Part shown: positions 38,400 through 57,837 of the stretch, in pieces
Layout of the letters: the number at the start of each line of letters is the position of its first letter
Position numbering within the stretch: the stretch's first letter is position 1
Translations under genes and position numbers: made by a program
Notes under the pieces: model-generated
Told to the model about the DNA's origin: nothing
Database searches by the model: none
What the model saw: the letters and a program-made list of their open reading frames with translations, nothing else
Assembly (NCBI GenBank): GCA_003149065.1
Contig: QGFZ01000001.1
Location: 1,240,001-1,304,000, forward strand
Direction of reading: 5' to 3'
DNA length: 64,000 nucleotides
DNA from: Ruminococcaceae bacterium R-25
GTDB taxonomy: Bacteria; Bacillota; Clostridia; Saccharofermentanales; Saccharofermentanaceae

Positions 38400-39734
38400 A
38401 TGATACTCTCGGAAGAACACAGAATAAAGAAACATAACAATAAGAAGCTTCTTCACGAGATAGACGATTACTGCTATAAAGTGAAAAACCTCTCTAACAG
38501 CGTTAACTACCTGATAAAACAGTGCTACCGCATCCATAAGAAGATCGTGAACGGAAAAGCACTTGAGGATTGGGAAAAAGAGTTAATCCAAGAAATAAAC
38601 AAAGCGCTCGAGAAATACAATGCCGGCCGTTCTGAAAGCAAGCAACTGCGTTATATCAATGCCGATAACGGATACATAGCCGATGCATATTTCCTCAGTT
38701 GGTATCTGAAAGGAACGGAAGTATATAAAGACGTTCCGTATTCAACATGCAGCCAGATATGTATACAAGAGAAATGCAGAGAGTGGAAGTCGTTCTACAG
38801 GGCGAAAGCCGAATACGGGAAAGATCCAAAGAAGTTTAAGGAGCATCCGCATGTACCGGGATATCTAGACCCGAAAAAAGGAAGAGGCTCTCTTGTTATC
38901 ACCAGTCAGATCTTCAAGGTTGATGAGGCTGGTAATGTTACCATGCCTAAATTCCTTAGCGGCATACACATCCGTGCAAGACACAGAAACATAAGGCAGA
39001 TAAGGATAAAGATGTTCAAGGATTCTATCCTTATCAGTCTGATGTATGAGAAAGAAGAAAAACAGATAAGCGGAACAAAGATCATGGGGATAGACTTGGG
39101 AGTAAACAATCTCATAGCAGCCGCATGGGATTCTGAAGACAGGCCTGTGATAATCAACGGAAAACCGCTGAAATCGATAAACCAGTACTACAACAAGGCA
39201 AGAGCTCATATGCAAAAGGAGGCGAAGGTATATAACGGAAAGAACAGGACCAAAAGACTGAATAACCTTACGGCAAAAAGGAACCGCAAGATAAAAGACT
39301 ACATGCACAAGGCAAGCAGGAAGCTAGTTAACCTGGCAGTCTCTTCGAATGTAGGGCTCATAGTTATAGGAGCCAATCAGGGATGGAAACAAAAAGTACA
39401 CATGGGAAATGTAACAAACCAGAACTTTGTATCCATACCGTATAAGACGCTTATAAACATGATCGAATACAAAGCAAGACTTGAAGGCATTGAGGTAAAG
39501 ACAGTACGAGAAAGCTACACGAGCGGCACGAGTTATCTTGATGGAGAAAAGCCTGATCCAACGCACTATGACAAGACGCGCAGGATAGAACGCGGATTAT
39601 TTAGGAGCAATAGCGGTATATTGATAAACGCAGACGTAAATGCTGCATATCAGATGATGAAACTAGGTGACACAAGAGCAATTCCCATCAATACGAGGAG
39701 AACAGATAATCAAGATAAAAGCAGCCTGAATTAG
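38400..39734 (+). CDS. tnpB: TnpB-like RNA-guided nuclease of the IS200/IS605 group
   Basis: 444 aa, ATG after AAGGGGTATGTAAC. The RuvC-like core is present: Asp232 in GIDLGVNNLIA, IVIGANQGWKQ at 321-331, ESYTSGTSYLDGE at 371-383 and Asp412 in NADVNAAYQ. In the usual TnpB the second strand ends IVVEDL; here the position is Gly (IVIGAN), and Glu371 of ESYTS may serve instead, as known for some TnpB lineages. The usual zinc-ribbon cysteines are absent. No TnpA is present, so it is a solo or immobile copy. It lies between a decayed transposase and hxlR. Probably active as a nuclease guided by an RNA from its 3' end. Confidence 0.88.
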   Translation: MILSEEHRIKKHNNKKLLHEIDDYCYKVKNLSNSVNYLIKQCYRIHKKIVNGKALEDWEKELIQEINKALEKYNAGRSESKQLRYINADNGYIADAYFLSWYLKGTEVYKDVPYSTCSQICIQEKCREWKSFYRAKAEYGKDPKKFKEHPHVPGYLDPKKGRGSLVITSQIFKVDEAGNVTMPKFLSGIHIRARHRNIRQIRIKMFKDSILISLMYEKEEKQISGTKIMGIDLGVNNLIAAAWDSEDRPVIINGKPLKSINQYYNKARAHMQKEAKVYNGKNRTKRLNNLTAKRNRKIKDYMHKASRKLVNLAVSSNVGLIVIGANQGWKQKVHMGNVTNQNFVSIPYKTLINMIEYKARLEGIEVKTVRESYTSGTSYLDGEKPDPTHYDKTRRIERGLFRSNSGILINADVNAAYQMMKLGDTRAIPINTRRTDNQDKSSLN

Positions 39735-41864: not shown

Positions 41865-42932
41865 TTATCTAAACTCAACCGTAAAACCGCCCCATCCAAG
41901 CGGATCAAAAACATCAGGTACTCTTTCTCCTGCAGAATCGTAGTGAAAACATAATGGTTCGAAGGTATAACTCTTAGCATTGGGATCAAGACCCTCCAAA
42001 TCCGTCATAAAAATTGTCACGCAGTTATCATCGGAATCAATACCATAAACCCATACAGTTGTACTATTTCCACTGCTATCGGTAATCCGGTACTTTACGA
42101 TATCTTTAATAGACTTCGATGAATCATTCAATTGATAGACGATACTTACTTTGAACATCGATGGTGCAACAGTTACGTTTATATCTGCAACTCCACCTTC
42201 GACAGAAAGCTTTTCCTTTCTCAGCTGACGCGCGTCATTTGGTTTCTCAAAATCAAAACGCAATTCCTGTTCTGCTATCGTCTCAACCTCGTTGTTTTCC
42301 TGAGTCGTAAGTAATTCAGGCACAATCTTGTATTGATTCAGTTTCAGATGGGTTACAAGAGTTACCTTCCCGGAACTGGTATCCGCATTTGAGAGATCAA
42401 CATAACAGATGTAGTGTCCGGTATACGTTTCAGTGTTTTCATCCCAGTCTCCGTCAGCTGACAATTGGCAATCTGTGCCATTCACATCAGCGTGGTCACT
42501 CCACACGACCCTCATATTACCAGCATCGATTACCTTCTGTGGGGCAGTTGCTGTAAAGTATAAAGTCGCACCATCATACCAGTATTCTTCAATTGTCCAA
42601 AGCGGACCGTAGTCTTCACCCTCAATTTGACTGATTTTTATCTCATTCTCCGAGGGAGAATCCAATCTCCCGTTTACTTCTTCCTCTGGCATAAACTTGG
42701 ACAGGAATCCAGCCAATCCGCCGTTTGCAGCCCACGCTACACCACCACCTATCAGTACAACTGTGACTATAGCTGCTGCCGCGACCGCTGGGTTCTTGAA
42801 AAAACTTCTTCGAATATTGCTGTTTTTGCTCATTCTGCTTTCCTCCTGAATTTGGGCAAAAGCGTTCTGAGCCTTTTCCTGAACTATATCAGGCACGTTC
42901 ATTTCTTTAACTGCACGACTAAAATCCTTCAT
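41865..42932 (-). CDS. DUF4179-type anti-sigma factor (2)
   Basis: 355 aa from the ATG at 42932 (GGAG seven bases upstream, four bases past the sigma stop). Cytoplasmic N-terminus of about 45 residues (MKDFSRAVKEMNVPDIVQEKAQNAF), a membrane helix at about 50-70 (AVAAAAIVTVVLIGGGVAWAA), then an outside domain with ATLYFTATAPQ and C-terminal strands. It pairs with the sigma gene just upstream. The outside domain is unlike anti-sigma 1 except in general layout, so a different signal is likely. Confidence 0.82.
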   Translation of the reverse strand: MKDFSRAVKEMNVPDIVQEKAQNAFAQIQEESRMSKNSNIRRSFFKNPAVAAAAIVTVVLIGGGVAWAANGGLAGFLSKFMPEEEVNGRLDSPSENEIKISQIEGEDYGPLWTIEEYWYDGATLYFTATAPQKVIDAGNMRVVWSDHADVNGTDCQLSADGDWDENTETYTGHYICYVDLSNADTSSGKVTLVTHLKLNQYKIVPELLTTQENNEVETIAEQELRFDFEKPNDARQLRKEKLSVEGGVADINVTVAPSMFKVSIVYQLNDSSKSIKDIVKYRITDSSGNSTTVWVYGIDSDDNCVTIFMTDLEGLDPNAKSYTFEPLCFHYDSAGERVPDVFDPLGWGGFTVEFR

Positions 42933-42936
42933 ATGA

Positions 42937-43452
42937 TTACTCCATACCATTGTCAAAATATCTGGCCAACTGCGCCCTGCCTCTTGAAAGCCTCGTTTGT
43001 ATGGTGCTTACAGGGACATTGAGTATAGCTGCAATTTCTTTAGTGCTATACCCGTCACCATAAAACATCATGATCGGCACCCTGTATTTTTCATCCAGCT
43101 GCTCTATGGCTTCCTTTATTTCCAAATTGCTTTCATCTTCATGAAAGGCAAGTTCTTCATGCTCACTGATATCTACAGTGTCTATTCTCTTCTTTCTGAT
43201 ATCGTGGCATCTGTTGATCAGGATTCTTGTCATCCATGTTTTAAAAAGCTTGTTGTCACGAAGGGAACTCAGCCGTTCCCAACATGCAAGGATAGTTTCC
43301 TGTATCGCATCAGCTGCATCCGCATCATTCATCAGTATTGCAACCGCTGTTCGATACATGTCCTTCATATAAAGGTTCATTAGTTCAGTAAAGGCTTCAG
43401 GATCCCGCCTTTTTGCCTTTTGTACCAATTTGAAGTTCTCTGTGTTACTCAT
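42937..43452 (-). CDS. ECF RNA polymerase sigma factor (2)
   Basis: 171 aa, ATG after TAGGAGTAGAAG. Region 2: FTELMNLYMKDMYRTAVAILMNDADAADAIQETILACWERL. Region 4: IEQLDEKYRVPIMMFYGDGYSTKEIAAILNVPVSTIQTRLSRGRAQLARYF. Anti-sigma 2 follows after four bases. The upstream minus strand holds CGTCTAATATAATG near 43530, a -10-like element for either the vegetative or an ECF holoenzyme. Confidence 0.93.
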   Translation of the reverse strand: MSNTENFKLVQKAKRRDPEAFTELMNLYMKDMYRTAVAILMNDADAADAIQETILACWERLSSLRDNKLFKTWMTRILINRCHDIRKKRIDTVDISEHEELAFHEDESNLEIKEAIEQLDEKYRVPIMMFYGDGYSTKEIAAILNVPVSTIQTRLSRGRAQLARYFDNGME

Positions 43453-43681: not shown

Positions 43682-46057
43682 TTATCCTCGCTCATCCAGC
43701 ACCTTCTGTACTCTGTCTTGAGCAATTTTAATTACATCAACCAGCTCTTTTTGTCCTAAGAAGTAGGCCGGCATCTCTTCGATAAGTATGAGGTTAATCT
43801 CTGAATCAACCGAATTCATTCTTGAACAGTTCAATATTACTTTCTCCAGATCATTTACGGTTTCTTCTGAATACTTCTTTCTTGTACCGTTTGACCCTGC
43901 ATTATAGTAATCAACTGCAGTTTTTGCAGCCTGTTTTAAAGCTTCCCTGTTGACTGTAATTCCGTCACACATAGCATAGTTCGTTTGAACATCATCAGAC
44001 AGGAGCATCTTAACAAATTCAGCACAGGCAGCAATATTCTTTGCCTGTGCGGAAACAGCAACAGAACGTCTGGGAGAGAATAAAGGACCTCTGCCATCTG
44101 AAGAAGGAATGCCTAGAACAGCTGTGGCGCCGCTAAGAGTTGCTGTATCGGAGAAATAAGAGCTTATACTAGGGCAGGAATTGTAAATTGCACACCGGCC
44201 TTCCTGTTCCGCGATAGTACTGTCATTAACAACTTCGCCAAAAGCTCTGCTGTTTTGCGGAGCATTGTCTTTCACATACCTGGCAAGCTCTTTAAACTCA
44301 GGAGTCGTAAAATCGACTTTGCCGCCTTTAATAAACAAATCTCTTTCAGCACTGAACAACCTGGCGAAATACACCGCCTGTCCGTCGCCTATTACATCTT
44401 TGCCGTTCAATGCACCTCTGAGGAATACTTCATATTCGGCAGTCGTAAAACCGACGCCGGAACTTCCGGCATACTTCGGATTCGTATGTATTCCATCAAC
44501 AGTAATTGTGACCGGCACCTGATAAAGCGCTCCGTCGTACTTCGCACCTTCGATTACGTTGGTAAAATACTTATTTGAATCGAGTGTACCGATATATGGT
44601 GTCAGATCCGCCAGAAAATTCGGATTGTTCAGAAGTCCAAACGAACTTGTATTCATTAAGATATCCGGACCTTTACCGTTTATGAGATCGACAGCAAGAG
44701 CTTCACTCTTTTTCGAATTGACCGTAAGGTTATACACTTCGTATTCATCTGCATTTCCGGCACTCTGCTCGGTGCTGGAATACTTACTCAGATTATAGCG
44801 GTCCGTAACTTCAATAAAATATTCACTGTTAGTATCATTGAACTTCAATACAGCATCAGCTGTTGTGTAATCCAGTTCCCCGTCGGCAGAATACAGTTCA
44901 AGAACAGTTTTTCCTGCATGGGGATTCTGAGCAGCTCTGGAAAACTCATATATCATAAATTCCGGTTTAACGTTTGATATAAAACTTCCCGGCTGATACT
45001 TCTGTCCGCAAAGAAGGAACGAATCTCCCGTACATTCTGCCACATAGAAAAAGTTAAGTAATTGTCTGTTTATATTGCACCAACTGTAATCGAAAACCAT
45101 CTCAACGGCTTTCTTATCCAAATTTATCCTGGATATACCAAGCGGAGAGGCATAATAAGTCTTGCCATCTGTTCCGCTCAATAATGAACCATAAATATAT
45201 GTATCAAGCCATTTGTATTCTTCGTGGTCAGCGGGTGCTGCCGTACCCTGCTCAAGATCAAAAGTATAGTAGATAATACCCTTGTCCGTTTCTGCGCATA
45301 TCAATGCTGCAGTTTCAGTAACCGGCAAAACAGCATTAACTGAAAAGATCTGTGTTCCATTACCATTAACTTCAGTTTCCTTTGTATTGCCATCAGGAGA
45401 GATAACTCTGACAGTGAAGCTTTCAAGCCAGGAATTCCAGTCCCTGATTATCTCAGTTCTGTACTTACCAACGGTATATGTACGGTCGACAGAATCTTTA
45501 ACTTCACCATCAATCCTGCGGGTGTCCAAAACACTTCCGGATAACGGATCAATATCGGTTTCTATGTTTGTTGTTTTGTTGGCAGAAGCATCGTATTTAA
45601 GGGACGTAACAGTAATCCTGCCTGAAGCATAGTTAATAACATCAATGATTCCCTCAACAGAAATATCATTCTTAACATTGATGTGTTTAACTGTTTCACC
45701 TTTGGCTCTGTCAAAAACAGAAACTATCGGAGTCGTAGAATTCTCATATTCCTGCAGATCACTGTCAGTGACAGTATTATCATCACCAAGCAACTTGTAG
45801 TAAACAGTTGTGACAACAACAATATACTTATCGTCCACGCCGGCAAATTTAGTATCTGTATATTCAGCGTCAACGTTCTCTTCTATGCCCAGATCAATAT
45901 TGATCCTCTTGCTTTCAAACCAAGGAAAATCAGAAGAAACTTTCTCACCTGTCTGAACAGCAGATGTCTCTGAAGGATCTGTCTTCTTATCGCAGGAAGC
46001 TATGCTCAAAAGCAAAGATACTGCTGCAATGATACTTACTGTCTTTTTTATGCTCAC
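43682..46057 (-). CDS. Solute-binding-protein-like lipoprotein, paralogue 2
   Basis: 791 aa, GTG start six bases past the stop of the M56 fusion gene, so in one operon. Signal peptide with lipobox SIASC; the mature start contains SSDFPWFESK. A beta-rich domain runs to about 370, then a binding-protein-like domain: NPHAGKTVLELY, FNDTNSEYFIEVTDRYN, GKGPDILMNTSSFG, LADLTPYI, YFTNVIEGAKYDGALYQVPVTITVDGI, GIPSSDGRGPLFSPRRSVAVSA and LLSDDVQ. It ends EEMPAYFLGQKELVDVIKIAQDRVQKVLDERG-like, nearly identical to the fusions. No transporter is linked. Probably a free, lipid-anchored partner or decoy of the upstream sensor. Confidence 0.87.
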   Translation of the reverse strand: MSIKKTVSIIAAVSLLLSIASCDKKTDPSETSAVQTGEKVSSDFPWFESKRINIDLGIEENVDAEYTDTKFAGVDDKYIVVVTTVYYKLLGDDNTVTDSDLQEYENSTTPIVSVFDRAKGETVKHINVKNDISVEGIIDVINYASGRITVTSLKYDASANKTTNIETDIDPLSGSVLDTRRIDGEVKDSVDRTYTVGKYRTEIIRDWNSWLESFTVRVISPDGNTKETEVNGNGTQIFSVNAVLPVTETAALICAETDKGIIYYTFDLEQGTAAPADHEEYKWLDTYIYGSLLSGTDGKTYYASPLGISRINLDKKAVEMVFDYSWCNINRQLLNFFYVAECTGDSFLLCGQKYQPGSFISNVKPEFMIYEFSRAAQNPHAGKTVLELYSADGELDYTTADAVLKFNDTNSEYFIEVTDRYNLSKYSSTEQSAGNADEYEVYNLTVNSKKSEALAVDLINGKGPDILMNTSSFGLLNNPNFLADLTPYIGTLDSNKYFTNVIEGAKYDGALYQVPVTITVDGIHTNPKYAGSSGVGFTTAEYEVFLRGALNGKDVIGDGQAVYFARLFSAERDLFIKGGKVDFTTPEFKELARYVKDNAPQNSRAFGEVVNDSTIAEQEGRCAIYNSCPSISSYFSDTATLSGATAVLGIPSSDGRGPLFSPRRSVAVSAQAKNIAACAEFVKMLLSDDVQTNYAMCDGITVNREALKQAAKTAVDYYNAGSNGTRKKYSEETVNDLEKVILNCSRMNSVDSEINLILIEEMPAYFLGQKELVDVIKIAQDRVQKVLDERG

Positions 46058-46063
46058 AAAGAA

Positions 46064-49000
46064 TTATCCACGCTCATCAATTACTTTCTGGATCCTATTC
46101 TGAGCAATCTTGATAACCGCATCAAGGTCTTTCTGTCCTAAGAAGTAGGCCGGCATCTCTTCAATAAGAATCATACTTATTGAAGAATTATCCGATCTCA
46201 TTCTCGAACAGCTCAGAATGGTCTGTTCTACTTTATTTATATCACTATTGTTTAACTCAACATAATAAGTCGAACCTTTTCTTACAAAAGTGTTGAAGTA
46301 ATTTACAGCGGCCTCACCGGCATTTCTTGATGCATTGCGGTTAAGAACAAAGTTGTCGTTCATGGCAAGATAAGTCTGTACTTCTTCGGAGAGCAGCATC
46401 TTTACGAATTCTCCGCAGGCATCTGCATCAACAGTTTCTTTGGAAATTGCAACTGAACAGTTAGATGAGTATCTTGGACCTCTTCCATCAACAGAAGGGA
46501 TACCGAGAACAGTGGGGTTCTTGACCGGGCCGTTTCTGTCTGCATAATCAACAAAATAATCTCTGTATCCCTGAATCTCAGAATCATATTCGGCGTAATT
46601 CAGAGCTTCCGTTAAACCACTGGAAAACTCTCCATAAGGAACTCCATCTTTGGGAACGTTGTTCTTCACATAATCAGCTAACGCAGCAAATTCCGGACCT
46701 GTCAGATCGGCCTTTCCGTTTACGATGAACTTGTCATCCATAGCATTAAACAGTTTGGAAAACAGCATTGCCTGTCCGAAATACATGATATTCTCGCCAT
46801 TCAGATCACCGTCAACCAACGCCTTATATTCATCCAGCGTAAACCCTACACCGGTTTTCCCGGCATACTTTTCATCTGTCCTTATTCCTTCGATCACAAA
46901 GCCTACAGGCAACTGGTAGATGACGCCATCGCGTTTTGAACCTTCAATGATGTTCGTATAGTACTTATCAGGATCAAGATCTTTTACATACGGCGTCAGA
47001 TCCATCAGATAATCAGGATTGTTAAGCTGGCCGTAATTACTTGTGTTTATCAGGATATCAGGACCTTTGCCACTGATGATATCCTTCGCCAGAGCGCTGC
47101 TCATATTCAGTTCTGAATTGAGCATTATTATTCCAGTATCATCTATATTTTTTACCTGAGACTCTGAATAATTACTGGTCTGGTTATAGCGATCAACTAC
47201 TTCTATGAAGTAGTTTTTGTTTGTATCATTATATCTGGCTATAGCTTCTCCAATATAATTCGTTACATAGGGGGCATACAATTCCAGAACAGTTTTACCG
47301 GCATTAGGATTCTTTTTTGCCTTTGTAAATTCTACGATCTGGCATGTCTTCTTTATACTCTCGTACTCTGAATCACCTGTTGTCTGTCCGAACATGATAA
47401 TGGTGTCTCTGGTACATTCAATAAACTTAAGATCTGCAACTTTTCCTCTATTAATTCCGCACCAGTTGAATGTAAAGACATCTTCCACTTTCTTAGCGCT
47501 TACATTTACCCTGGCAAGGCCACTTAAAGTTCTGCAGTATACCTCTCCATTTGTTCCGGTAAATGCTTCCGTCAGTTCATTGGGATCAAACCAGCTGTAA
47601 TTCTTCTCATCCCCTGTTATTAATTTATTAGTAGTAAGATCCAGCTCGTAATATCTGTTTCCCTTATCCGAGGTTGCAGGGATTAAAACAGTAGTATTGT
47701 TTAATGCCAGAACAACTGAAGAATAAATCCTGTTGCCGGGTTCATTCAATTCAACGAGAGAAGATTTTCCGTCAGGCGAAGTAATAACAACGTTGGTGTG
47801 ATAAAGACCGCCTTCATCGTATGCTATTGCAGTTTCGATCCTGTAATTGCCGATTTTAAAGAAACGCGAATCCCAGCCTGCGTCTTCATTTGCTAAAGGA
47901 CGGGAATCCAGCAGATTACCTGTTGCAGGATCATAGTCGCGCTCATTGGAATTAGTTTTTACAGTTATCTTGCCTTCCATATAGAAGGAAGCTTCAGGGT
48001 TAATGTATTCTCCTGAGTTCTTATCAAGATCGCGCTTAACATTAACAGTATTTACAGTTTGCTTTGTGTTCCTGTCGATTACTTTGACAGTTAAGAACTC
48101 CTCAAAAGTCGGCAAATCCGCATTTTCTTCCACATAAGAACCTTCTGCGCACAAAACATAGTATTTCTCATCTGCGCCCCAGAAAAAAAAATTCGGATAA
48201 TAGATATCTCTGTCCTCTTTCAGACCCAGATCGATATCATAAGTTTCAGAGGTAAACCATGGAGTATCCTTTGAAATCTTGCCCGCATTATCAGTTGAAT
48301 TTGCAAACGAACAACTCGTAAACAGCAAAAGAGCAGCCATGCTCAAAGCAAGTGCTTTTCGGCTCTTATTTGCAGGTTTCTTTATGTTGCTGATCCTTTT
48401 CTTCATCACCTTATATCCCCCTCTCATACCTGTAGAAACAGTAAACCCAAATGAAATTCCCGTCTTTCTCTGAAGCATCGAAAACAGAGTCTTTGCATAT
48501 TCCTTAGCAGATCCTGAACCGCATGTTTTCAGGACTTCTTCATCGCAAGCCAATTCGCAGTCCTGTCCTGACAGGAAAAATGCTGCCCAGATCACAGGGT
48601 TATACCAGTTAAGAAGCAGAACAAGATACCGGACAAGGATCCATATATGATCGCCATGCTTATAATGGCATGCCTCATGACAGATAATGTAATCACTGAT
48701 TTCTTCCAAATCTTTATCCACATAGATCTTGTTGAATAACAGGTACGGCGTTCCCTGGTGCTTTATCCGATAGATCTTAAGCTTTCCGGAAGGGTCTTTG
48801 CCGACATATTCTCTTTTGTGTCTGCAATAGGTTATAAAGCCTGCGTTATATACCAGCAATGCTAATACCAGGAGTGCTGATACGGAGTATGCAATATAAC
48901 CCAATAATTTCTCGGTCTTTATCGTGTTTTTAGTTCTGGATTCCGTTTTCGAATCATTATAATTTGCAGGCAAAGACTGTTTCTCCGGTTTTGCAGCAAC

Positions 49001-49309
49001 ATTATCCAGCTCATTGGTTTCTGCCTGTTTGCTTTGTTCATAAGGATTCACCTTGTTGTTATCAGCAACAACAGCAGGCATTTTAGGTGCCGCTGCTTCA
49101 TATGTGATCTCAGTCTTTTTTACAAACAAAGACTTTAATTCATAAGCTGCCGGAACATCGATCCTTATGAAAGGCATAAGGATCATATAAAGAGGAATAA
49201 TAAGCCAGAATGCATACTGTTGCTTCTTAAGCACCTTTCCGTTCGTCAATGCACGGATGATAATTATGACGGCAGCTATAAACGTGATTCCTATTACATA
49301 ACGAAGCAT
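46064..49309 (-). CDS. BlaR1-type M56 peptidase fused to solute-binding-like sensor (1)
   Basis: 1081 aa. Residues 1-330 are BlaR1-like: helices at about 3-20, 32-49 and 135-158, then a cytoplasmic zinc protease loop with HEACH at 211-215 and the third metal ligand in ACDEEV (about 257), and a helix at about 318-333 ending LLFTSCS, a lipobox-like end. The rest (about 340-1081) is not a penicillin-binding domain but is homologous to the lipoprotein family in this window: DTPWFTSE, NPNAGKTVLELYAPY, GKGPDILINTSNYG, LMDLTPYV, YYTNIIEGSKRDGVIYQLP and EEMPAYFLGQKDLD. BlaI-type repressor gene ends one base before. Expected action: the outside domain binds a ligand, the protease cleaves the repressor. 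Confidence 0.9.
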   Translation of the reverse strand: MLRYVIGITFIAAVIIIIRALTNGKVLKKQQYAFWLIIPLYMILMPFIRIDVPAAYELKSLFVKKTEITYEAAAPKMPAVVADNNKVNPYEQSKQAETNELDNVAAKPEKQSLPANYNDSKTESRTKNTIKTEKLLGYIAYSVSALLVLALLVYNAGFITYCRHKREYVGKDPSGKLKIYRIKHQGTPYLLFNKIYVDKDLEEISDYIICHEACHYKHGDHIWILVRYLVLLLNWYNPVIWAAFFLSGQDCELACDEEVLKTCGSGSAKEYAKTLFSMLQRKTGISFGFTVSTGMRGGYKVMKKRISNIKKPANKSRKALALSMAALLLFTSCSFANSTDNAGKISKDTPWFTSETYDIDLGLKEDRDIYYPNFFFWGADEKYYVLCAEGSYVEENADLPTFEEFLTVKVIDRNTKQTVNTVNVKRDLDKNSGEYINPEASFYMEGKITVKTNSNERDYDPATGNLLDSRPLANEDAGWDSRFFKIGNYRIETAIAYDEGGLYHTNVVITSPDGKSSLVELNEPGNRIYSSVVLALNNTTVLIPATSDKGNRYYELDLTTNKLITGDEKNYSWFDPNELTEAFTGTNGEVYCRTLSGLARVNVSAKKVEDVFTFNWCGINRGKVADLKFIECTRDTIIMFGQTTGDSEYESIKKTCQIVEFTKAKKNPNAGKTVLELYAPYVTNYIGEAIARYNDTNKNYFIEVVDRYNQTSNYSESQVKNIDDTGIIMLNSELNMSSALAKDIISGKGPDILINTSNYGQLNNPDYLMDLTPYVKDLDPDKYYTNIIEGSKRDGVIYQLPVGFVIEGIRTDEKYAGKTGVGFTLDEYKALVDGDLNGENIMYFGQAMLFSKLFNAMDDKFIVNGKADLTGPEFAALADYVKNNVPKDGVPYGEFSSGLTEALNYAEYDSEIQGYRDYFVDYADRNGPVKNPTVLGIPSVDGRGPRYSSNCSVAISKETVDADACGEFVKMLLSEEVQTYLAMNDNFVLNRNASRNAGEAAVNYFNTFVRKGSTYYVELNNSDINKVEQTILSCSRMRSDNSSISMILIEEMPAYFLGQKDLDAVIKIAQNRIQKVIDERG

Positions 49310-49310
49310 A

Positions 49311-49667
49311 TCAGATATCCTCTATCATCTTCCTGATCTCTTCCAACTGTTCCGGTGTAAGCTTTTCTGAACCAATCAGATTAGAAATAAGAAGTCCCGC
49401 ATTCCCGTTATAGACTTTATCAAGGAGCGATTCGACTTCCTCATTCTCAGCTTCAGATTTCTCGATAGCAGGAGAAAAGATCTTGGTGCGACCTTCCTGG
49501 ACAAAAGAGACAGCGCCCTTCTCGAGCATGCGCTTAAGCAAGGTAATAACTGTAAATCTTGTCCATCCGGTGCTCTCGCTCAATTCATCCGTGATCTCTG
49601 CAATGGTCATGGATTTGTTTTCCCAAAGGCAATTAGCTATTTTCCATTCCGAGTCTGTTAAGCGCAT
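49311..49667 (-). CDS. BlaI/MecI-type repressor (1)
   Basis: 118 aa from the ATG at 49667, eight bases after AGGAG; a longer in-frame extension covers the promoter and is rejected. The winged helix is clear: MRLTDSEWKIANCLWENKSMTIAEITDELSESTGWTRFTVITLLKRMLEKGAVSFVQEGRTKIFSPAI, then a helical dimer segment with the acidic run SEAENEEVES, and SGLISN-like tail. In bla/mec systems the receptor protease inactivates such repressors. The gene is one base upstream of its partner M56 fusion, and its promoter carries a large inverted repeat. Confidence 0.92.
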   Translation of the reverse strand: MRLTDSEWKIANCLWENKSMTIAEITDELSESTGWTRFTVITLLKRMLEKGAVSFVQEGRTKIFSPAIEKSEAENEEVESLLDKVYNGNAGLLISNLIGSEKLTPEQLEEIRKMIEDI

Positions 49668-49689
49668 AAATACTACTCCTGTGAATTTG

Positions 49690-49737
49690 TTGACAAATGT
49701 CCACTTCGAATATAACTCGTTAGTGGACAACTGTCAA
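49690..49737 (-). promoter_or_regulatory. BlaI(1) promoter with 48-base inverted-repeat operator
   Basis: Minus strand TTGACA (49737-49732), 17 bases, TATATT (49714-49709). The promoter lies inside an inverted repeat with arms of 16 bases at each end (TTGACA..TGTCCACT), 14 of 16 matching, with AGTGGACA as the inner half-site. Repressor bound to both arms would cover the -35 and the start. Confidence 0.75.
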
Positions 49738-49842
49738 CATACTGAATAAACTTCTTAAAAAGAGAGAGAGTTGAGGGTCGTATTTCTTCTGCTACATCCC
49801 TCTCAATATATGTATCAATATAAGCCAGCCTCAGATTATCTT

Positions 49843-49911
49843 ATTCCGAAGTTTACTATTATCGAATTCCGAAGTCAGTAGTTATTAAATTCCGAAGTTT
49901 GATTACTTCTC
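49843..49911. repeat. Three 23-base direct repeats (iterons)
   Basis: ATTCCGAAGT starts at 49843, 49866 and 49889, exact 23-base steps. The 13 bases after each core are A/T-rich and less conserved. Confidence 0.75.
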
Positions 49912-49912
49912 A

Positions 49913-49997
49913 GAAGCGTTTCAAGAACAGCTAAAACAATGAAAGAACAGAGTTTCCGGGCTTCGCATTCAGTTTTTAAGACACTCTTCGGCCACTT
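49913..49997. repeat. Flank repeat, copy A
   Basis: About 85 bases align to 58025-58110 at about 80% by eye with one gap, sharing AGAAC, TTTCCGGG, CTTAAG/TTTAAG and CACTCTTC-GCCACTT. The other copy abuts a duplicated tRNA-Arg 3' half. Confidence 0.6.
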
Positions 49998-50136
49998 GAT
50001 AATTACTTTTAATCATTCATGCACCTGAAAAATATGGTATTACTGCATTTCAGCAAAATAGAGGATAATCAGCCGGTAAAATAGAGGCAGATTGCTGTCT
50101 ACGAAGAAAACGGTAATAAATCGAGTTAATAATAAA

Positions 50137-50179
50137 CAAGGCCCCGAAGTGTGGGGACACTCCTTTCGTTGGGACCTTG
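50137..50179 (-). terminator. Intrinsic terminator of module 2 operon
   Basis: Minus strand CAAGGTCCC ... GGGGCCTTG with inner pairing, then TTTATTATT. It lies 81 bases past the stop at 50260. Confidence 0.65.
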
Positions 50180-50259
50180 CGTTCTTATGTTCGAAGGACT
50201 TATTCAATCCTTCTATAGTCGGATTCAGTCATCCGTACTATACTGCTTATATTTCAAAA

Positions 50260-53200
50260 CTACCCTCGTTCATCTAACACTTTCTGTATTCTGTTCTCGG
50301 CAATCTCAATTACAGCATCCAAATCCTTCTGCCCTAAAAAATACGCTGGCATTTCTTCAATAAGAATCATACTAATATCCGGATCTTCAGATTTAACCCT
50401 TGAACAGCCCAGTATTATATTTTCAATAAACTCTATGTCCTGCATTGTTATCTTATTGCCAATACTGTTGCCATAGCTGCCACTACCTCCATTGCTATAG
50501 TATTCAACGGCAACTGCACCAGCGTTTTTAAATGCTTCCCTGCTCAAAACAAATCTGTCATTCATGGCAATCTCGTTTTGAATATCATCAGACAAAAGCA
50601 GCTTTACAAACTCGCCACAGGCTTTTGAATCAACAGCATGTGTAGACACTGCTACAGAACAAGTAGGTATAAACAGAGGCCCTCTGCCGTCAACAGACGG
50701 AAAACCAAGCATAGTCACCCCTCTTCCGTAAGGAGTAATACCCATACCCATGCCATAAAAATCGTTTATTCCCGTACATCCCGATTCCAAAGTTAAATCG
50801 CATTTCAGAAGAGGACTCTCCGCATAGCATGAACTATACCACGCATTAAGGGAACTTCCATTTTCCGGTACATTATCTTTAATATAGTCAGCAAGCTCTT
50901 TAAATTCCGGTTTAGACAAATCAACTTTTCCGTTCGATATAAACTCATCACTCATACCACTAAAGAGCATTGAAAAATATACTGTCTGACCATTAACAAT
51001 AGGGTCATTTCCATTCAAAGTTTCTCTGACAAACTTCTTATACTCTTCAAGCGTAAAGCCCTTTGCAGTACTACTGACATTTTCAGCTTTGGTGAAGATT
51101 CCTTCCATTCCAAAGCTTATGGGCAATTGATAAAGAACGCCATCAATTTTTGACCCTTCTATAATGTTAGTAAAATACTTATCAGAATTATATTCTTTTA
51201 AATATTGTGAAAGATCAACAAGACAGTTTGAATTATTAAGTTGATTGAACCCACTAACATTCATCAGTATGTCAGGACCTTCGCCGTTGATAATATCTAT
51301 GGCAAGTTTGTTGCTCAGTTTGCCTTTACCCTTTATTTCAGACAAATCCATGACGTCCTGATTATTATTATCATAATCTTTATCAAAGAAATCACTATAT
51401 AAATACCTTGTTGAAACTTCAATAAAGCATTTACCGTTAGTCTGATTGAATAGTGCGATTGCTTCCCCCGTAAATCTGTCCACTCCACCATATGCATATA
51501 ATTCTAAAACAGTTTTACCTGCGTGAGGATTCTTATCTGCTCTCGTAAATTCGATAATTCTAATCTTATCAGCCCTTCTTCCGGAATAAACATTTGTCAT
51601 ATCATATTTGCAGCAGATCACAAACCTGTCATCAGAGCATTCCATCAATGTAGAGTACTGGATCAATCCAATATTAAGATCACACCAGTTAAAATCTAGA
51701 GCAAGCTCAATTGACTTTGTCCGTGCATTTACTCTTGATATTCCACAGTCAGAGTTGAAATATATCATCCCGTCAGGGCTGGATAAGGATTCATATAACG
51801 AGGCATAATCCAACCACTCATAATCTTTAGAATCAGCAGGGGTTAACTCATTATTTTCAAGATCAAGGTGATAGTATACTCTTTTATTTCCAATAGATTC
51901 CATTATCAATGCACGGGTGTCAGTTACTGCTAAAACCGATGAAACCCATACATCTCTATCCGCTTTCTTGATTTCTATCTTTGATACCATCTTGTCAGGT
52001 GCTGTAATACTCAGTTCAGCGTATCTGAGCTCCTCATTATCCTGATGATCGATCACTTCAATCTCATAACCGCCTATTGTGTATAATTTCGAAGATGAAT
52101 ATAAATCATTCTTGCCGGATTCATGGGTAGCCAGAAGTTCTCCTGTAAACGGATCATAATCTCTTTTTGCCAAATTGGTTTTAGCAATAATTATCCCGTT
52201 TGAGTAGTAAGCATCCTTAACAAAGTTTTCACTGACAGTAAGATCCTTAAGCAAATCGATAGTATTCACAGTTTGACTGGTCTTACGGTCTATAACTGCA
52301 ATATAACAGAATCTATAGTCCTTTTGATTGTAATTATCCCAATCTATTTCGTCATCGGGAGGCATCTCATAGTCTCCTGATGTGCGAATAATATAGTAGT
52401 TATCATCCATTCCAACAAATTGATAATTCAGCAAAGACATTACCTTGTTTTCATCAGCACCGCTCTTCACTTCAATTATGTTCGTGTTGAACCAGGGATC
52501 ATCTGCCTTAACCCTTCTGGTATCTGAAGTCTTTGCAAAAGAACAACTTGTAACCAACAGTATAGCCGCCATGCTTAAAGCCGTAACCTTTCGGCTGCTA
52601 TTTGCCGGTCTCTTTAAGTTAATTATTCTCTTCTTCATCATCTTATATCCGCTTCTCATTCCAGTTGACAGGGTGAAAACAGCTTTATTTGCCTGTTGTT
52701 GTGGTATTCCAACCAGTGTTCTTGCATATTCTTTATAAGAATCAACACCATAAGCTCTCATAACTTCTTCATCGCACGCATATTCACAATCCCGACCGGA
52801 AAGAATAAAAGCTAACCATATTATTGGGTTATACCAATTAAGAAACAGAACCAAATATCGGATTAATACCCATAAATAGTCACCATGTTTATAATGACTG
52901 ACTTCGTGACAAACTACAAAATCGTTAATCTTCTCCGAACTGTTATCAACATAGATTTTATTAAAGAGAAGGAATGGTGTTTGTTTATATCTGATACTAT
53001 ATATTTTGAGACCACTTGAAGGATCTCTGCCGATATATTTCCTGTTGCGTTTGCAATAGGATATAAATCCAGTGTTGTACACTACTAATGCTGCGATAAG
53101 AACGACAGAAACAAGAACACTGCTACTCCTCAGTGTTGCACCTACTTTCTTAGATTCGTTTGTTTTAATTATTGATATATCTGCATGATTATCCGTTATC

Positions 53201-53544
53201 TTCTCACGTTCATAGGATTTCCCGGAAGATCTTTGCATTTCATAATTTACAACAGACTGATTATCCGAAAGAGATTGCTCAGTCTCCATATCTCCAAGCA
53301 TGAATGTAGAAGGAACTGCTTCTTTAACTTCCTGTGTCGCAACTTCAGTATTTGAAGTGAACAGAGTATTTCCAATATCTGCTACAGGAACATTTATCTT
53401 CACAAATGGCATTAAAATCATATAGAGCGGAATAGCAATCCAAAAAGCATATTGATACTTTCGGAGTATTTTTCCGTTCGACAAAGCACGTACAATAATA
53501 ATGCCTATTGTTAATATGGTAATGCCAATGATATAGCGCAACAT
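50260..53544 (-). CDS. BlaR1-type M56 peptidase fused to solute-binding-like sensor (2)
   Basis: 1094 aa, same design as the copy at 46064. Helices at about 3-20, 32-49 and 140-162; HEVSH at 213-217; ACDEEV with the third ligand near 259; junction helix ending LLVTSCS (Cys334). The outside half starts KADDPWFNTN, has a beta-rich part and then NPHAGKTVLELYAYG, FNQTNGKCFIEVSTRY, GEGPDILMNVSGFN, LVDLSQYL, YFTNIIEGSKIDGVLYQLPISFGMEGI, GFPSVDGRGPLFIPTCSVAVS and EEMPAYFLGQKDLDAVIEIAENRIQK. The repressor gene is one base upstream. The two sensors differ mainly in the second helix-to-third helix loop (60-135) and the beta part. Confidence 0.9.
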   Translation of the reverse strand: MLRYIIGITILTIGIIIVRALSNGKILRKYQYAFWIAIPLYMILMPFVKINVPVADIGNTLFTSNTEVATQEVKEAVPSTFMLGDMETEQSLSDNQSVVNYEMQRSSGKSYEREKITDNHADISIIKTNESKKVGATLRSSSVLVSVVLIAALVVYNTGFISYCKRNRKYIGRDPSSGLKIYSIRYKQTPFLLFNKIYVDNSSEKINDFVVCHEVSHYKHGDYLWVLIRYLVLFLNWYNPIIWLAFILSGRDCEYACDEEVMRAYGVDSYKEYARTLVGIPQQQANKAVFTLSTGMRSGYKMMKKRIINLKRPANSSRKVTALSMAAILLVTSCSFAKTSDTRRVKADDPWFNTNIIEVKSGADENKVMSLLNYQFVGMDDNYYIIRTSGDYEMPPDDEIDWDNYNQKDYRFCYIAVIDRKTSQTVNTIDLLKDLTVSENFVKDAYYSNGIIIAKTNLAKRDYDPFTGELLATHESGKNDLYSSSKLYTIGGYEIEVIDHQDNEELRYAELSITAPDKMVSKIEIKKADRDVWVSSVLAVTDTRALIMESIGNKRVYYHLDLENNELTPADSKDYEWLDYASLYESLSSPDGMIYFNSDCGISRVNARTKSIELALDFNWCDLNIGLIQYSTLMECSDDRFVICCKYDMTNVYSGRRADKIRIIEFTRADKNPHAGKTVLELYAYGGVDRFTGEAIALFNQTNGKCFIEVSTRYLYSDFFDKDYDNNNQDVMDLSEIKGKGKLSNKLAIDIINGEGPDILMNVSGFNQLNNSNCLVDLSQYLKEYNSDKYFTNIIEGSKIDGVLYQLPISFGMEGIFTKAENVSSTAKGFTLEEYKKFVRETLNGNDPIVNGQTVYFSMLFSGMSDEFISNGKVDLSKPEFKELADYIKDNVPENGSSLNAWYSSCYAESPLLKCDLTLESGCTGINDFYGMGMGITPYGRGVTMLGFPSVDGRGPLFIPTCSVAVSTHAVDSKACGEFVKLLLSDDIQNEIAMNDRFVLSREAFKNAGAVAVEYYSNGGSGSYGNSIGNKITMQDIEFIENIILGCSRVKSEDPDISMILIEEMPAYFLGQKDLDAVIEIAENRIQKVLDERG

Positions 53545-53545
53545 A

Positions 53546-53902
53546 TTAATCCTCTTCGATTATTCTACGAAGTTCCTCTAACTGCTCTTTAGTAAGTTTG
53601 TCTGAACATTTCAGATTCGAGATCAGTAATCCGACATTACCGCCATAAACTTTATCCAGGAAAGAAGTTGTCTCTTCAAGTTCTGCTTCCGTCCTGTCTA
53701 TTGCAGCACTGAACCATTTGGTTCTCCCCTCCTGGTCATAGGAAACCAGTCCTTTTTCAACCATACGATTAAGTAAAGTAATAATTGTCTGCTTAGACCA
53801 TCCGGTCTTTGCATCTAAAGCTCTTGTAAGTTCCATTAAAGTCATGGATTTATTAGTCCAAAGACAATTGATGATCTTCCATTCTGAATCAGTTAAACGC
53901 AT
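53546..53902 (-). CDS. BlaI/MecI-type repressor (2)
   Basis: 118 aa, ATG with GGAGG eleven bases upstream. Winged helix: MRLTDSEWKIINCLWTNKSMTLMELTRALDAKTGWSKQTIITLLNRMVEKGLVSYDQEGRTKWFSAAID, then RTEAELEETTSFLDKVYGGNVGLLISNLKCSDKLTKEQLEELRRIIEED. It is close to repressor 1, but the recognition-helix residues differ (SKQTIITLLNRM against TRFTVITLLKRM), and so do the operators. It sits one base before the sensor gene. Confidence 0.92.
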   Translation of the reverse strand: MRLTDSEWKIINCLWTNKSMTLMELTRALDAKTGWSKQTIITLLNRMVEKGLVSYDQEGRTKWFSAAIDRTEAELEETTSFLDKVYGGNVGLLISNLKCSDKLTKEQLEELRRIIEED

Positions 53903-53922
53903 TAATAATCATTCCTCCGCAC

Positions 53923-53970
53923 TGGTCTACTCTTGTTTACCAATATACAACTTTGGTCTACAAGAGTCAA
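53923..53970 (-). promoter_or_regulatory. BlaI(2) promoter with TGGTCTAC repeats
   Basis: Minus strand TTGACT (53970-53965), 17 bases, TATATT (53947-53942). TGGTCTAC occurs at 53923-53930 and 53954-53961, 31 bases (three turns) apart, and ACTCTTGT / ACAAGAGT form an inverted pair at 53929-53936 and 53960-53967. Different from the operator of module 1. Confidence 0.7.
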
Positions 53971-54089
53971 CCAGACAAAACAGTTCACGTGTGATGATGT
54001 TCTCATACAAATGTTGCCGTTCCTGAATAGCAACGAATCCGCTACCTCTGTTTTTTGTTTTAATTTCCTAAACACCACACACAAACAGG

Positions 54090-54358
54090 CTACCAATGCG
54101 AAATAATGTAATCAATATTAACAGCAATTTGAGGGTATTTTCTGAGCCTGTTACGTATAGATTCAAACTCAATCGAGCTTTCAACACACATCAACTCACT
54201 GATATTGATAGTACGATATTCGCCAATAATATCAAACAAACAATATGACTGTCTGAAATAATGCCCTTATTATCTTGAACAACTACCAAATCATTAAAAT
54301 CTACACTTTCATAGTGATCCCAGAAAATGCCAAAAAGCTTATATGTGCTCTTCGTCAC
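54090..54358 (-). pseudogene. Frameshifted small gene after the 54.4 kb cassette
   Basis: A GTG at 54358 (GAGG upstream) opens VTKSTYKLFGIFWDHYESVDFNDLVVVQDNKGIISDSHIVC and soon meets a stop, but a one-frame change continues as FDIIGEYRTINISELMCVESSIEFESIRNRLRKYPQIAVNIDYIISHW to a stop at 54090. Amino-acid use is natural on both sides, so I read it as one gene of about 90 aa broken by a single indel. Sequencing error is possible. It directly follows the stop of the 118-aa gene and was probably the third gene of that operon. Confidence 0.55.
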
Positions 54359-54364
54359 TATTCC

Positions 54365-54709
54365 TCATAGCTCAATCGCAATTCCAGTATTATTTGCAAT
54401 GGCATATTGGAGATAGTCTTTAAGTTTATTAAAAAAGTTGAGAAGAGGAATCATACGTTCTTCTCTACTGACATTGTTTAACCATTCCAATAACAATGCA
54501 CATTGCGAAGCATTGTAATATTGATAATCTCCGAGATCCAGCGTTGCTTCGCATAACTCATTAGTCTGATCAACAAAAAGATCATCAATTAGATTGCTAT
54601 CCTCTTCAGTTATTTCAAATGAGACAACCTTTTCTTTCTCTTGCGTAAGATCAGGAACATCTCCATACATAGGAATATTTGATAAATCATGAGCTAAATA
54701 AACTTTCAT
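54365..54709 (-). CDS. Hypothetical small acidic protein
   Basis: 114 aa from the ATG at 54709; a GTG at 54721 that overlaps the previous stop is an alternative start. Soluble, acidic, mainly helical after residue 60: MKVYLAHDLSNIPMYGDVPDLTQEKEKVVSFEITEEDSNLIDDLFVDQTNELCEATLDL and ALLLEWLNNVSREERMIPLLNFFNKLKDYLQYAIANNTGIAIEL. I do not recognise the family. The DxxL layout and size fit immunity or antitoxin-like partner proteins, but that is inference. Confidence 0.65.
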   Translation of the reverse strand: MKVYLAHDLSNIPMYGDVPDLTQEKEKVVSFEITEEDSNLIDDLFVDQTNELCEATLDLGDYQYYNASQCALLLEWLNNVSREERMIPLLNFFNKLKDYLQYAIANNTGIAIEL

Positions 54710-54717
54710 ATTACATT

Positions 54718-55905
54718 TCACTCCTGCGAGCTATGACACATATACAAATTGTATAGCGAATTCAATGCGCAATAATATAAATCTTCTTGCGTTTCCGCAT
54801 AACGATCATTAATATAAACCATTTCAAATTCACAGGATTTGACTCTGTAATATAAGTTATTACATGAATCAATAACAAATCTACATAACCAAAAAGTGAG
54901 TTCCGCTTCTTCACAAGAACCAAAGTCTTTTTCAAGCCAAAGATAATCCATTGGCGGCAACGCATCCGACTCAATGTTGTTTTCCTTCATCCAAAGATAA
55001 TCGTCTATATACTTATCAATTGATGAATGATCAGCGTTCTTAAATATCTCTGTGCCGGATTTAATATGGTTTGTAAACGAATAAATATCATAATTACTAA
55101 TATCAAGATCAGAATAATAATCAAAAGCTCGATATAAGTATTGGTTAAACATATATAAGTATCGTCTTGTTGATAATTGGTATTCTTCTAAATCCGCGCA
55201 AAAGCGCTCCAATGCCTCTTCCAAAAACAGCGATTTCATATCTGCCAATAATTCAGCATCACATGCTTTTAGAATATATCTTTGTATTTTGGGGGGTAAC
55301 AGAATAAACTCGGTATACATAGATCTACAGTGTTTGTGTTCAGGACTATAACAAAACGCTATTTGACACAGAGGAATTAATTCCTTTTCTTGTTCATGAC
55401 TAATCAGGAACGCTCTTGCAACAATCTCATCAGCCTCATCAAGAGATACATTTGTCTTAGTCTTTTTGGCAGACGATTTGACAACTGTTTTTTTCGCCTC
55501 TATTTCTTCTTCTGACAACAAACCAGCAGATTTTGTGATTATTCTTACCATTATGGCAGCAACACGTTCAGCAACATTTTCAGCATCTAAACTTTCATCG
55601 TAAAGAGACAATTCTCTTGCCAAAGCCTCTCTTGTTGCTAGCGGTCTTTCGTTTATTCGCTCCATCAGAATATCAGGAGTCAATCTGTTGACTATGGACT
55701 GAGCAAAAGTCTTAGATAATCCCCTCTTAATGAAATTAAGAATAGTGTTATCTTTTATTCTTTTAGTATTAGGATCAACCTCGGTTCCCCATTCTTCTTC
55801 GGTAACTGTAGTAATCATGGCCATCAAGTCCCTAAAAAAATAGGGACGATCATGTCCATCACCAAGACATTTCTTAAGTGGATTAAAGATTTCCTTAAAT
55901 TCCAT
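54718..55905 (-). CDS. Hypothetical protein, first gene of accessory cassette
   Basis: 395 aa, ATG after AGAGGAATACGAG. No signal peptide or membrane helix. The N-terminal 100 residues (NPLKKCLGDGHDRPYFFRDLMAMITTVTEEEWGTEVDPNTKRIKDNTILNFIKRGLSKTFAQSIVNRL) look like a folded helical domain with a small DNA- or partner-binding character. A Lys/Thr-rich linker (about 143-155) precedes a C-terminal helical domain of 230 residues rich in Tyr, Asp and Leu. I cannot assign a family. It starts an AT-rich three-gene unit that lies between module 2 and a divergent toxin-type operon, a place and composition typical of recently acquired cassettes. Confidence 0.65.
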   Translation of the reverse strand: MEFKEIFNPLKKCLGDGHDRPYFFRDLMAMITTVTEEEWGTEVDPNTKRIKDNTILNFIKRGLSKTFAQSIVNRLTPDILMERINERPLATREALARELSLYDESLDAENVAERVAAIMVRIITKSAGLLSEEEIEAKKTVVKSSAKKTKTNVSLDEADEIVARAFLISHEQEKELIPLCQIAFCYSPEHKHCRSMYTEFILLPPKIQRYILKACDAELLADMKSLFLEEALERFCADLEEYQLSTRRYLYMFNQYLYRAFDYYSDLDISNYDIYSFTNHIKSGTEIFKNADHSSIDKYIDDYLWMKENNIESDALPPMDYLWLEKDFGSCEEAELTFWLCRFVIDSCNNLYYRVKSCEFEMVYINDRYAETQEDLYYCALNSLYNLYMCHSSQE

Positions 55906-56061
55906 TTATCTCGTATTCCTCTCATGAACCATTTTGAACCAACCTGCACCCGTTGGAAACAAGACACTTTTATACACTTCAAACATATCAAATACAGCTC
56001 AAATTACAACACCATCAAAAAGTGGGCAACGAGAGCATGAAAATCAGGGAGGAAATGAAAA

Positions 56062-56781
56062 ATGACAAAAACGAATGACAATACAAAGGATTCCCGCCCG
56101 GGGTGCAAAGATATTTGGAATGCCTATATGGCAGAAGGCGTTGTCTTCTGTAAACACGATATCCCCTATTGTCCTACAACGGCTACGACGATTCCCAAAG
56201 CTATCATAAACTGGGAAGAAGCCAAATCAATCCATAAAAAGCACCTAACCCAAAAAGAAACAGATTATAAATATGATGCATTTGTTTGTTTTTATATGGA
56301 TGATTATAAATTTGATGGTCCAAAAGGAGTTTGGTCCAATCCAAGATTAACACTTGAAGTACTTAAGCACTTTTCTGGAATCATCACTGTAGATTTTTCA
56401 ACATATCTTGATTTCCCGGAACCAGTTAATACATATGCCACATACAGAATGCGCTTGCTTGGCTATTGGTGGGGCAAAAACAAACTTGCGGTGATAAACA
56501 ACGTTCGATGGGGACCTAAAGAATCCTATGACTATTGCTTTGAAGGGATCCCCCAAAATAGTGTTGTTGCAATCGGGACTGTGGGCGGGAGCCCCAAAAG
56601 AGTCATAGATCGTGAAAGATTCGAACAAGGATTCTTTGAAATGATCAGAAAGCTTAAACCTCACACTATCATTGTTTACGGTTCGAGCAAGTATCCATGC
56701 TTTGAAGCAGCAGAGAAAATGGGTATTAGTGTAATTGCTTATCCCAGTCATACAGCAAGATATTGGGAGGCAAGAAAATGA
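56062..56781 (+). CDS. DUF4417 protein
   Basis: 239 aa, ATG after GGGAGGAAATGAAAA. The chain matches the DUF4417 pattern: cysteines and His near the N-terminus (GVVFCKHDIPYCP), WEEAKSIHKK, VCFYMDDYKFDGPKGVWSNPRLTLEVLKHFSGIITVDFSTYLDFPEPVNTYATYRMRLLGYWW, NVRWGPKESYDYCFEGIPQNSVVAIGTVG and the C-terminal LKPHTIIVYGSSKY. DUF4417 genes are frequent on phages and mobile elements; function is unknown. The next gene starts inside its stop codon (ATGA). Confidence 0.87.
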   Translation: MTKTNDNTKDSRPGCKDIWNAYMAEGVVFCKHDIPYCPTTATTIPKAIINWEEAKSIHKKHLTQKETDYKYDAFVCFYMDDYKFDGPKGVWSNPRLTLEVLKHFSGIITVDFSTYLDFPEPVNTYATYRMRLLGYWWGKNKLAVINNVRWGPKESYDYCFEGIPQNSVVAIGTVGGSPKRVIDRERFEQGFFEMIRKLKPHTIIVYGSSKYPCFEAAEKMGISVIAYPSHTARYWEARK

Positions 56782-57666: not shown

Positions 57667-57784
57667 ACGATTTAGAGTCCAGACCAAATAAAGAAACCTC
57701 TATATTCTTCTTGTAACAAATATGAATTACGGACAGAAATGATCTTGCCGACAATTTTGTTTTCAACTTGGTCTATGTAAAATA

Positions 57785-57823: not shown

Positions 57824-57837
57824 TCCCGAGCGGAAGG
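57815..57837 (+). terminator. Hairpin, possible terminator of the deaminase operon
   Basis: CCTTCCGCT / AGCGGAAGG with a TCCCG loop, followed by TTTC. The poly-U tail is weak. Confidence 0.4.

Follow-up and report, generated by a model that had tools for sequence, protein, structure and literature searches.

What does a BlaR1-type receptor sense when its outer half is a solute-binding lipoprotein and not a penicillin-binding domain? The BlaR1/BlaI pair is known as an antibiotic-resistance switch, and the question is raised by a gene, here called F1, in a stretch of 64,000 nucleotides from Ruminococcaceae bacterium R-25 (GenBank assembly GCA_003149065.1, contig QGFZ01000001.1, positions 1,240,001 to 1,304,000 of the forward strand). 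This whole stretch is referred to as the window, and coordinates are counted from its first letter. With slightly better than even confidence, we read F1 and its neighbours as a BlaI/M56 proteolytic switch that controls its own expression and whose sensor, in place of the penicillin-binding one, is of lipoprotein type and combines a beta-propeller with a sugar-type solute-binding protein (SBP).

Protease core, repressor and sensor of module 1

The repressor, the receptor and an adjoining free lipoprotein form the unit that we call module 1.

46064-49309, minus strand: receptor F1, M56 protease, lipobox and propeller/SBP sensor, 1081 amino acids (open frame, Pfam, models)
48359-49309, minus strand: M56 part of F1, residues 1-317 (approximate; PF05569; profile A2 matches BlaR1 8exp residues 181-317)
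48665-48679, minus strand: HEACH zinc motif of F1, residues 211-215 (aligns with H201/H205 of Staphylococcus aureus BlaR1)
48311-48358, minus strand: last transmembrane helix of F1, residues 318-333, ending in lipobox FTSC (330-333; C333)
47312-48289, minus strand: beta-propeller half of the F1 sensor, residues 341-666 (model, propeller matches)
46067-47299, minus strand: SBP half of the F1 sensor, residues 671-1081 (best match 7x0o, CbpC)
49311-49667, minus strand: BlaI-type repressor of module 1, 118 amino acids (PF03965; start set by comparison with a twin repressor)
43682-46057, minus strand: free lipoprotein paralogue Lp1, 791 amino acids (6-base gap; 42% identical to the F1 sensor)

The layout bears out an earlier note on this DNA, which had placed a BlaI gene one base before the receptor and a lipoprotein paralogue six bases after it. 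BlaI lies upstream and ends at 49311, one base short of the receptor ATG at 49309, and Lp1 starts 6 bases past the F1 stop codon, so that Lp1 probably belongs to the same operon as BlaI and F1. Comparison with the twin repressor indicates that BlaI probably starts at the ATG at 49667 and not at the listed TTG at 49730.

The BlaR1-type protease architecture that the note had recognized is well supported. The inner half of F1 matches PF05569 with an E value of 7.4e-28, and it carries the motifs HEACH (211-215) and CELACDEE (251-258, with E252 and D256). A profile built from five M56 parts finds BlaR1 of S. aureus (8exp) at E 6.1e-8 and aligns H211, H215, E252 and D256 with its zinc-site residues H201, H205, E242 and D246, and TGM (293-295) with its autocleavage site S283-F284. 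The BlaI-type repressor matches PF03965 (E 2.4e-29) over profile positions 1-114 of 115, which include the winged helix and the C-terminal dimer part. MecI/BlaI chains align over residues 3-116 of the twin repressor of module 2; this alignment, made with the twin, which has the same motif, would place N96-L97 of the module 1 repressor at the BlaI cut site N101-F102. Roles of the zinc, autocleavage and cut-site residues are those given for BlaR1/BlaI in the accessible portion of PMC9834060. F1 scores 78.1 bits against the NCBIfam model blaR1_generic, below the 400 needed. As far as sequence can say, the inner half of F1 would work like BlaR1.

The outer half is of a different kind. The note had suggested a domain of ~740 residues homologous to the lipoproteins of the window, and the F1 sensor is indeed 42% identical to Lp1, with PF01547 or PF13416 above cut-off in F1, Lp1 and two further free paralogues, Lp2 and Lp3. 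Pfam places SBP_bac_1 on residues 739-978 of F1 (E 1.1e-6), and finds no transpeptidase or beta-lactamase domain in the F1 sensor and no SBP match in the F2 sensor of module 2, each at E<=1. The proposal of an SBP in place of a penicillin-binding sensor was pursued by structure prediction. An AlphaFold2 model of C333-G1081, computed from six sequences (pLDDT 79.8, pTM 0.81), is predicted to end in a two-lobed SBP fold of about 410 residues that matches carbohydrate-type SBPs. Fold matches were sought among the structures within Foldseek's top 1000; the best for this half is CbpC of Clostridium thermocellum (7x0o; Z 23.0, rmsd 4.2, 378 residues aligned), followed by MalE-like and beta-1,2-glucooligosaccharide-binding proteins. 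Residues 341-666, for which a propeller had been suspected, were modelled separately (pLDDT 82.2, pTM 0.80) and match beta-propellers, with a best Z of 14.0 and 11.7 for YncE. A transpeptidase sensor, which the note had named as a refutation, is ruled out by Pfam and by the models, whose fold matches include no transpeptidase.

Two palindromic boxes GTnnACnnnnGTnnAC lie upstream of BlaI and are predicted to be BlaI operators at its own promoter.

49723-49738, minus strand: operator box 1, GTTGACAGTTGTCCAC, overlapping the -35 element TTGACA (49732-49737)
49709-49714, minus strand: -10 element TATATT, 17 bases from the -35 element
49689-49704, minus strand: operator box 2, GTGGACATTTGTCAAC

Recurrence of the fusion and of its operators

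Just upstream of module 1 lies a second complete repressor-receptor pair, module 2. Its receptor F2 is 44% identical to F1 over the whole length, and the M56 and PF03965 matches are found in both receptors and both repressors, respectively.

50260-53544, minus strand: receptor F2 of module 2, 1094 amino acids, lipobox VTSC
53546-53902, minus strand: BlaI-type repressor of module 2
53924-53972, minus strand: module 2 operator pair (53955-53972 and 53924-53941) around TTGACT-N17-TATATT
58118-60493, minus strand: free lipoprotein paralogue Lp2
60508-62910, minus strand: free lipoprotein paralogue Lp3

A profile of the sensor, with about 9 candidates scored per genome, matches 107 of the 115 genomes in the family of the window's organism; the matches listed are mostly free lipoproteins of ~800 amino acids. 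Such lipoproteins (propeller and SBP) are greatly expanded and often stand in tandem, as in the window (43682-62910) and across those 107 genomes. The M56-part profile matches 82 of the 115. From among the M56 matches listed we fetched 100 regions, leaving out no listed match whose open frame exceeded 850 amino acids; adding four loci of the own genome and the window brought the total to 110 M56 frames. The survey for combined M56 and SBP architecture that the note had called for thus returned 28 one-frame fusions (28/110) in 24 genomes of one family. Three of the 28 (L076-L078) match the sensor only patchily, at 46-51 bits, and four fusion frames run off a contig end. BlaI stands directly upstream in all 28 fusions and in 100 of the 110 M56 frames. 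The note had also feared separate genes joined by an assembly error, an explanation ruled out by the one-frame fusions read in 24 genomes: F1 is open for 1081 codons and the fusion recurs in relatives. A metagenome-assembled genome from horse faeces holds the same fusion at 90% identity, cut by a contig end (L008); it is probably the same contig as G048:C155, which is equally long, and is not counted as independent. At L068 (G079:C16, 4028-12999), a receptor with a much diverged sensor is followed by two lipoproteins of ~400 amino acids and then, ~3.6 kb behind the receptor, by a 97% identical copy of Lp1.

Sensors and cores have not travelled together. On a tree of the M56 parts (110 rows, with the helix and lipobox columns excluded) the sensor type changes at least 7 times, 4 of them forced by starred branches; on a tree of the sensors (67 rows, 19 fused and 48 free, LG+G4) the fused or free state changes at least 9 times, 7 of them forced. 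Both trees were made by a quick method with long branches flagged, and the second leaves out 9 of the 28 fused sensors (match too weak, or shorter than 600 residues) and enters identical rows once. We conclude that lipoprotein sensors were repeatedly attached to or detached from M56 cores.

The operators recur as well. When each box of a pair may carry up to one mismatch and the two box starts lie 30-36 apart, paired boxes stand upstream of BlaI in 16 of the 28 fusions, both window modules included (0.03 expected), 13 of them without any mismatch, and in 24 of 72 other loci with a readable stretch upstream of BlaI (0 expected). Of the 12 fusions missed, 8 have a pair at wider spacing (by eye), L057 has a misplaced start, and L076-L078 have none. 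Box 1 overlaps the -35 element in both window modules (TTGACA and TTGACT). A scan of the whole genome for two exact box patterns gives 6 sites for one and 4 for the other, against 1 and 0 per strand in the controls, and these ten sites form five pairs: at module 1, at module 2, at a BlaI-M56 operon (L005), between divergent permease genes (L166), and before a PF00144 gene (L165).

At L166 (own genome, C1:1100000-1109500, 1954-6205), BlaI and an M56 protein with an alpha/beta-hydrolase-like sensor stand downstream of one PF00528 permease gene and divergent from another, and the box pair lies between the permeases. Each of the seven loci L099-L105 likewise has divergent permeases and, in the space that separates them, a box pair at 33 bases; at an eighth locus with similar permeases (L120) the pair is located elsewhere. 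The hydrolase label PF12146 is above cut-off in all five scanned of L099-L105, and below it in the own genome (23.4 of 27 bits). The permeases fall below every NCBIfam cut-off, the best being UgpA-like and GlcU-like; among solved structures they are closest to AlgM1 and AlgM2 of an alginate importer, followed by SugB and MalG, and these relatives import alginate oligosaccharide, trehalose and maltose. No SBP gene is found among the open reading frames listed beside L166. At L165 (6479-8233; own genome, C2:348478 on), a gene for a PF00144 beta-lactamase-fold lipoprotein carries TTGACA-N17-TATATT with a box pair around it; the open reading frames listed beside this gene include no BlaI, and from its boxes it is a possible BlaI target in trans. 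These boxes resemble those of the hydrolase-sensor unit more than those of module 1 (by eye).

Elsewhere in the window, an IS605-type OrfB/TnpB gene (PF01385, PF07282) occupies 38400-39734. An ECF-type sigma factor (PF08281, PF04542) at 41865-43452 is followed by a membrane protein with only a weak DUF5643 match, which may be its anti-sigma factor. A small open reading frame at 56763-57242 has a weak YwqJ-like deaminase match of 18.2 bits, below the 25.9 cut-off.

The lipobox at the receptor-sensor joint

The joint between the two halves of F1, on which the note had not remarked, has the form of a lipoprotein signal, with a basic n-region, an apolar h-region and a lipobox (KSRK-ALALSMAALLLFTSC). 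This signal is not N-terminal: four other hydrophobic stretches come before its cysteine, residue 333. A lipobox ends the last helix in 26 of the 28 fusions and in 47 of the 82 other M56 frames (48 with a slightly wider search window), or in 18 of 20 fusion clusters and 37 of 61 other M56 clusters at 80% identity. The small-Cys-small pattern of those 26 fusions is kept within a stretch of otherwise variable residues, and the lipobox is matched in five of seven separately found relatives, two of the five (ALAC) being doubtful. At L005 and L095-L098, other sensors follow nearly the same helix end: the lipobox stays with the M56 core while sensors are swapped. A further receptor of the own genome (L001, C2:713961-717866) has the lipobox GAGC and an NlpC/P60-like sensor (22.8 bits, cut-off 23).

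A lipobox universal in M56 proteins is ruled out at the class level, where none of the 30 best-ranked M56 loci from elsewhere in the class has one. Among lower-ranked class-level proteins (L198-L217; 20 picked by hand among the matches listed, one without a parsed frame), 7 of 19 have it, and these seven come from seven different other families of Clostridia; lipobox-bearing M56 proteins perhaps form a wider receptor class in Clostridia. The genome encodes both LspA and Lgt. The BlaR1 sensor of S. aureus is shed by the type I signal peptidase SpsB, whose cut falls at G331-Q332 within the linker that follows the last helix; according to the portion of PMC9834060 at hand, this shedding has been proposed as a turnover that keeps the receptor low without inducer. 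The type II site of F1 is placed about where that type I site lies. Autocleavage at TG-M295, if it occurs, would leave a fragment starting MRGGYKVMKKRI, readable as an ordinary lipoprotein precursor.

These observations can be combined into a mechanism. BlaI on the two boxes at its own promoter would hold down expression of the whole set (repressor, receptor and Lp1). A ligand from outside the cell, on binding to the sensor, would shift the M56 core; this ligand is probably a carbohydrate, and the sugar that the note had listed as one possibility is indirectly favoured by the sensor fold and by the operators between the permeases of the paralogous unit. By alignment, the core would cut BlaI at N96-L97, upon which the operon would open and receptor and Lp1 rise together. 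Given the lipobox at the end of the last helix, the receptor may be a substrate for lipidation by Lgt and for signal peptidase II, which would sever the sensor after the helix. The cut sensor would then be a membrane lipoprotein, as a turnover product or as a non-covalent partner of the protease core, and the lipobox may alter the way in which the signal passes through the membrane. That the receptor really undergoes internal type II processing is a possibility to which we give somewhat less than even weight. Equally tentative is the wider proposal of a BlaR1-like class in which the last helix functions as an internal signal peptide of type II. Lgt and LspA would free the outer half as a lipoprotein, so that a single gene would give both a protease in the membrane and a binding protein at the surface; behind the cysteine, many lipoproteins could be plugged in, and cutting would help to set the fate of BlaI.

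Several results weigh against this account, some on the side of the ligand and the regulon and others on that of the lipobox. The window holds no ABC permease gene (none of the 24 BPD_transp_1 matches of the genome lies inside it), and no ligand site is readable. In Foldseek's own ranking the top hit is a dinucleotide-binding ABC protein and CbpC comes only 26th, so a carbohydrate ligand is no more than probable. With one mismatch allowed there is no excess of boxes in the genome (15 versus 18 per strand in the control), and for this reason the genome analysis uses only exact, paired boxes. A free paralogue stands within 700 bases behind only 5 of the 28 fusions, 4 others running to the contig end, which rules out Lp1 as a constant receptor partner. 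Two of the 28 fusions have no cysteine (AGS, VGS), and a sister group with hydrolase-like sensors (L006, L099-L105) has SGF in place of the lipobox; lipobox processing is therefore no requirement for all members. With or without a lipobox, the last helix has an apolar run with a median of 19, so the helix could span the membrane uncut, and sequence alone does not prove cutting. An apparent shortness of the helix for the membrane, 14 versus 19-21 residues, came from unlike spans; measured alike, the values are 19 and 19. Finally, a severed sensor would lose its covalent connection to the receptor, on which BlaR1 is believed to rely.

The likeliest alternative, itself rather unlikely, is signalling as in BlaR1 with the sensor covalently linked, the helix spanning the membrane, the lipobox-like end unprocessed, and the ligand moving the sensor against the membrane. 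The equal position and apolar length of the helix and the two fusions without cysteine agree with it, as do S. aureus structures in which the sensor moves relative to the membrane (PMC9834060, in its accessible portion). It does not readily explain why small-Cys-small is kept in 26 of 28 fusions amid varying residues, nor the absence of a lipobox from the 30 best class-level loci elsewhere, although the 7 of 19 lower-ranked proteins soften that contrast.

Considerably less probable is a sensor of lipoprotein maturation, in which the receptor is a decoy for Lgt and signal peptidase II. A cut receptor would mean quiet, and stalled maturation would let uncut receptor accumulate, cut BlaI and adjust lipoprotein genes. 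Retention of the lipobox while sensors swap, the lipoprotein genes behind some receptors, and the SpsB shedding proposed to hold BlaR1 low speak for this idea, whereas it has no need of a large, conserved sensor that folds like a binding protein, and most fusions have no paralogous lipoprotein directly behind them. Very improbable is an internal translation start at M303 (MKKRI...), giving a free lipoprotein from the same gene as the only product that the lipobox serves: MKKRISNIKKPANKSRKALALSMAALLLFTSC resembles a lipoprotein signal and a 4-base GAGG precedes M303 in F1 and some relatives, but this Shine-Dalgarno-like match is weak and not kept, and F2 has none at its corresponding start. Least probable of all is a cell-wall or beta-lactam sensor like BlaR1 with only its outer domain strange, a view that can draw on the BlaI family of the repressor and on the box pair of the PF00144 gene, but is opposed by a sensor that lacks any transpeptidase or beta-lactamase domain and is modelled as propeller and SBP, and by the closer likeness of the PF00144 boxes to those of the hydrolase-sensor unit.

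Relation to known systems

The reading of module 1 as a BlaI/M56 switch with a carbohydrate-type sensor presents the BlaR1-type protease-repressor core as a plug-in receptor in gut Clostridia, and a paralogue places the operators of the same core between sugar-type permeases. An M56 protease fused to a lipoprotein of sugar-binding type, with a lipobox at the join, suggests a reusable signalling design for non-antibiotic signals. The lipobox at the joint also bears on the role of signal-peptidase shedding in BlaR1-type signalling and makes it directly testable. Among the literature matches listed, no title concerns an M56-SBP fusion or a lipobox in BlaR1, in a search that did not cover subscription papers and preprints.

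The BlaI_1845 and BlaI_0696 operons of C. thermocellum likewise include BlaR1-like genes and belong to small BlaI regulons; the authors of PMC8457756 read them, in the part of that paper available, which gives no analysis of the sensors, as beta-lactam responses. With carbohydrate-type solute-binding lipoproteins (PF01547/PF13416; CbpC, 7x0o) the sensor shares its fold, in the F1 model, and its lipobox; it differs from them in the additional N-terminal propeller, in the fusion of F1 and F2 to a protease, and in a window without an ABC permease. The staphylococcal BlaR1/BlaI and MecR1/MecI systems resemble the F1 system in the M56 protease with HExxH...E, the BlaI partner encoded alongside and the dyad operators. 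To judge from sequence, the likeness to BlaR1/BlaI would extend to the autocleavage site and the BlaI cut site, both of which align, to a signal-peptidase site shortly after the last helix, and to an expected proteolytic derepression. Unlike BlaR1 and MecR1, F1 has a propeller and an SBP as its sensor and not a penicillin-binding domain, and unlike S. aureus BlaR1, with its type I site at G331-Q332 (accessible portion of PMC9834060), it has a type II lipobox behind the helix. Because the penicillin-binding sensor, a defining feature, is absent when tested, F1 is not a BlaR1 in the narrow sense.

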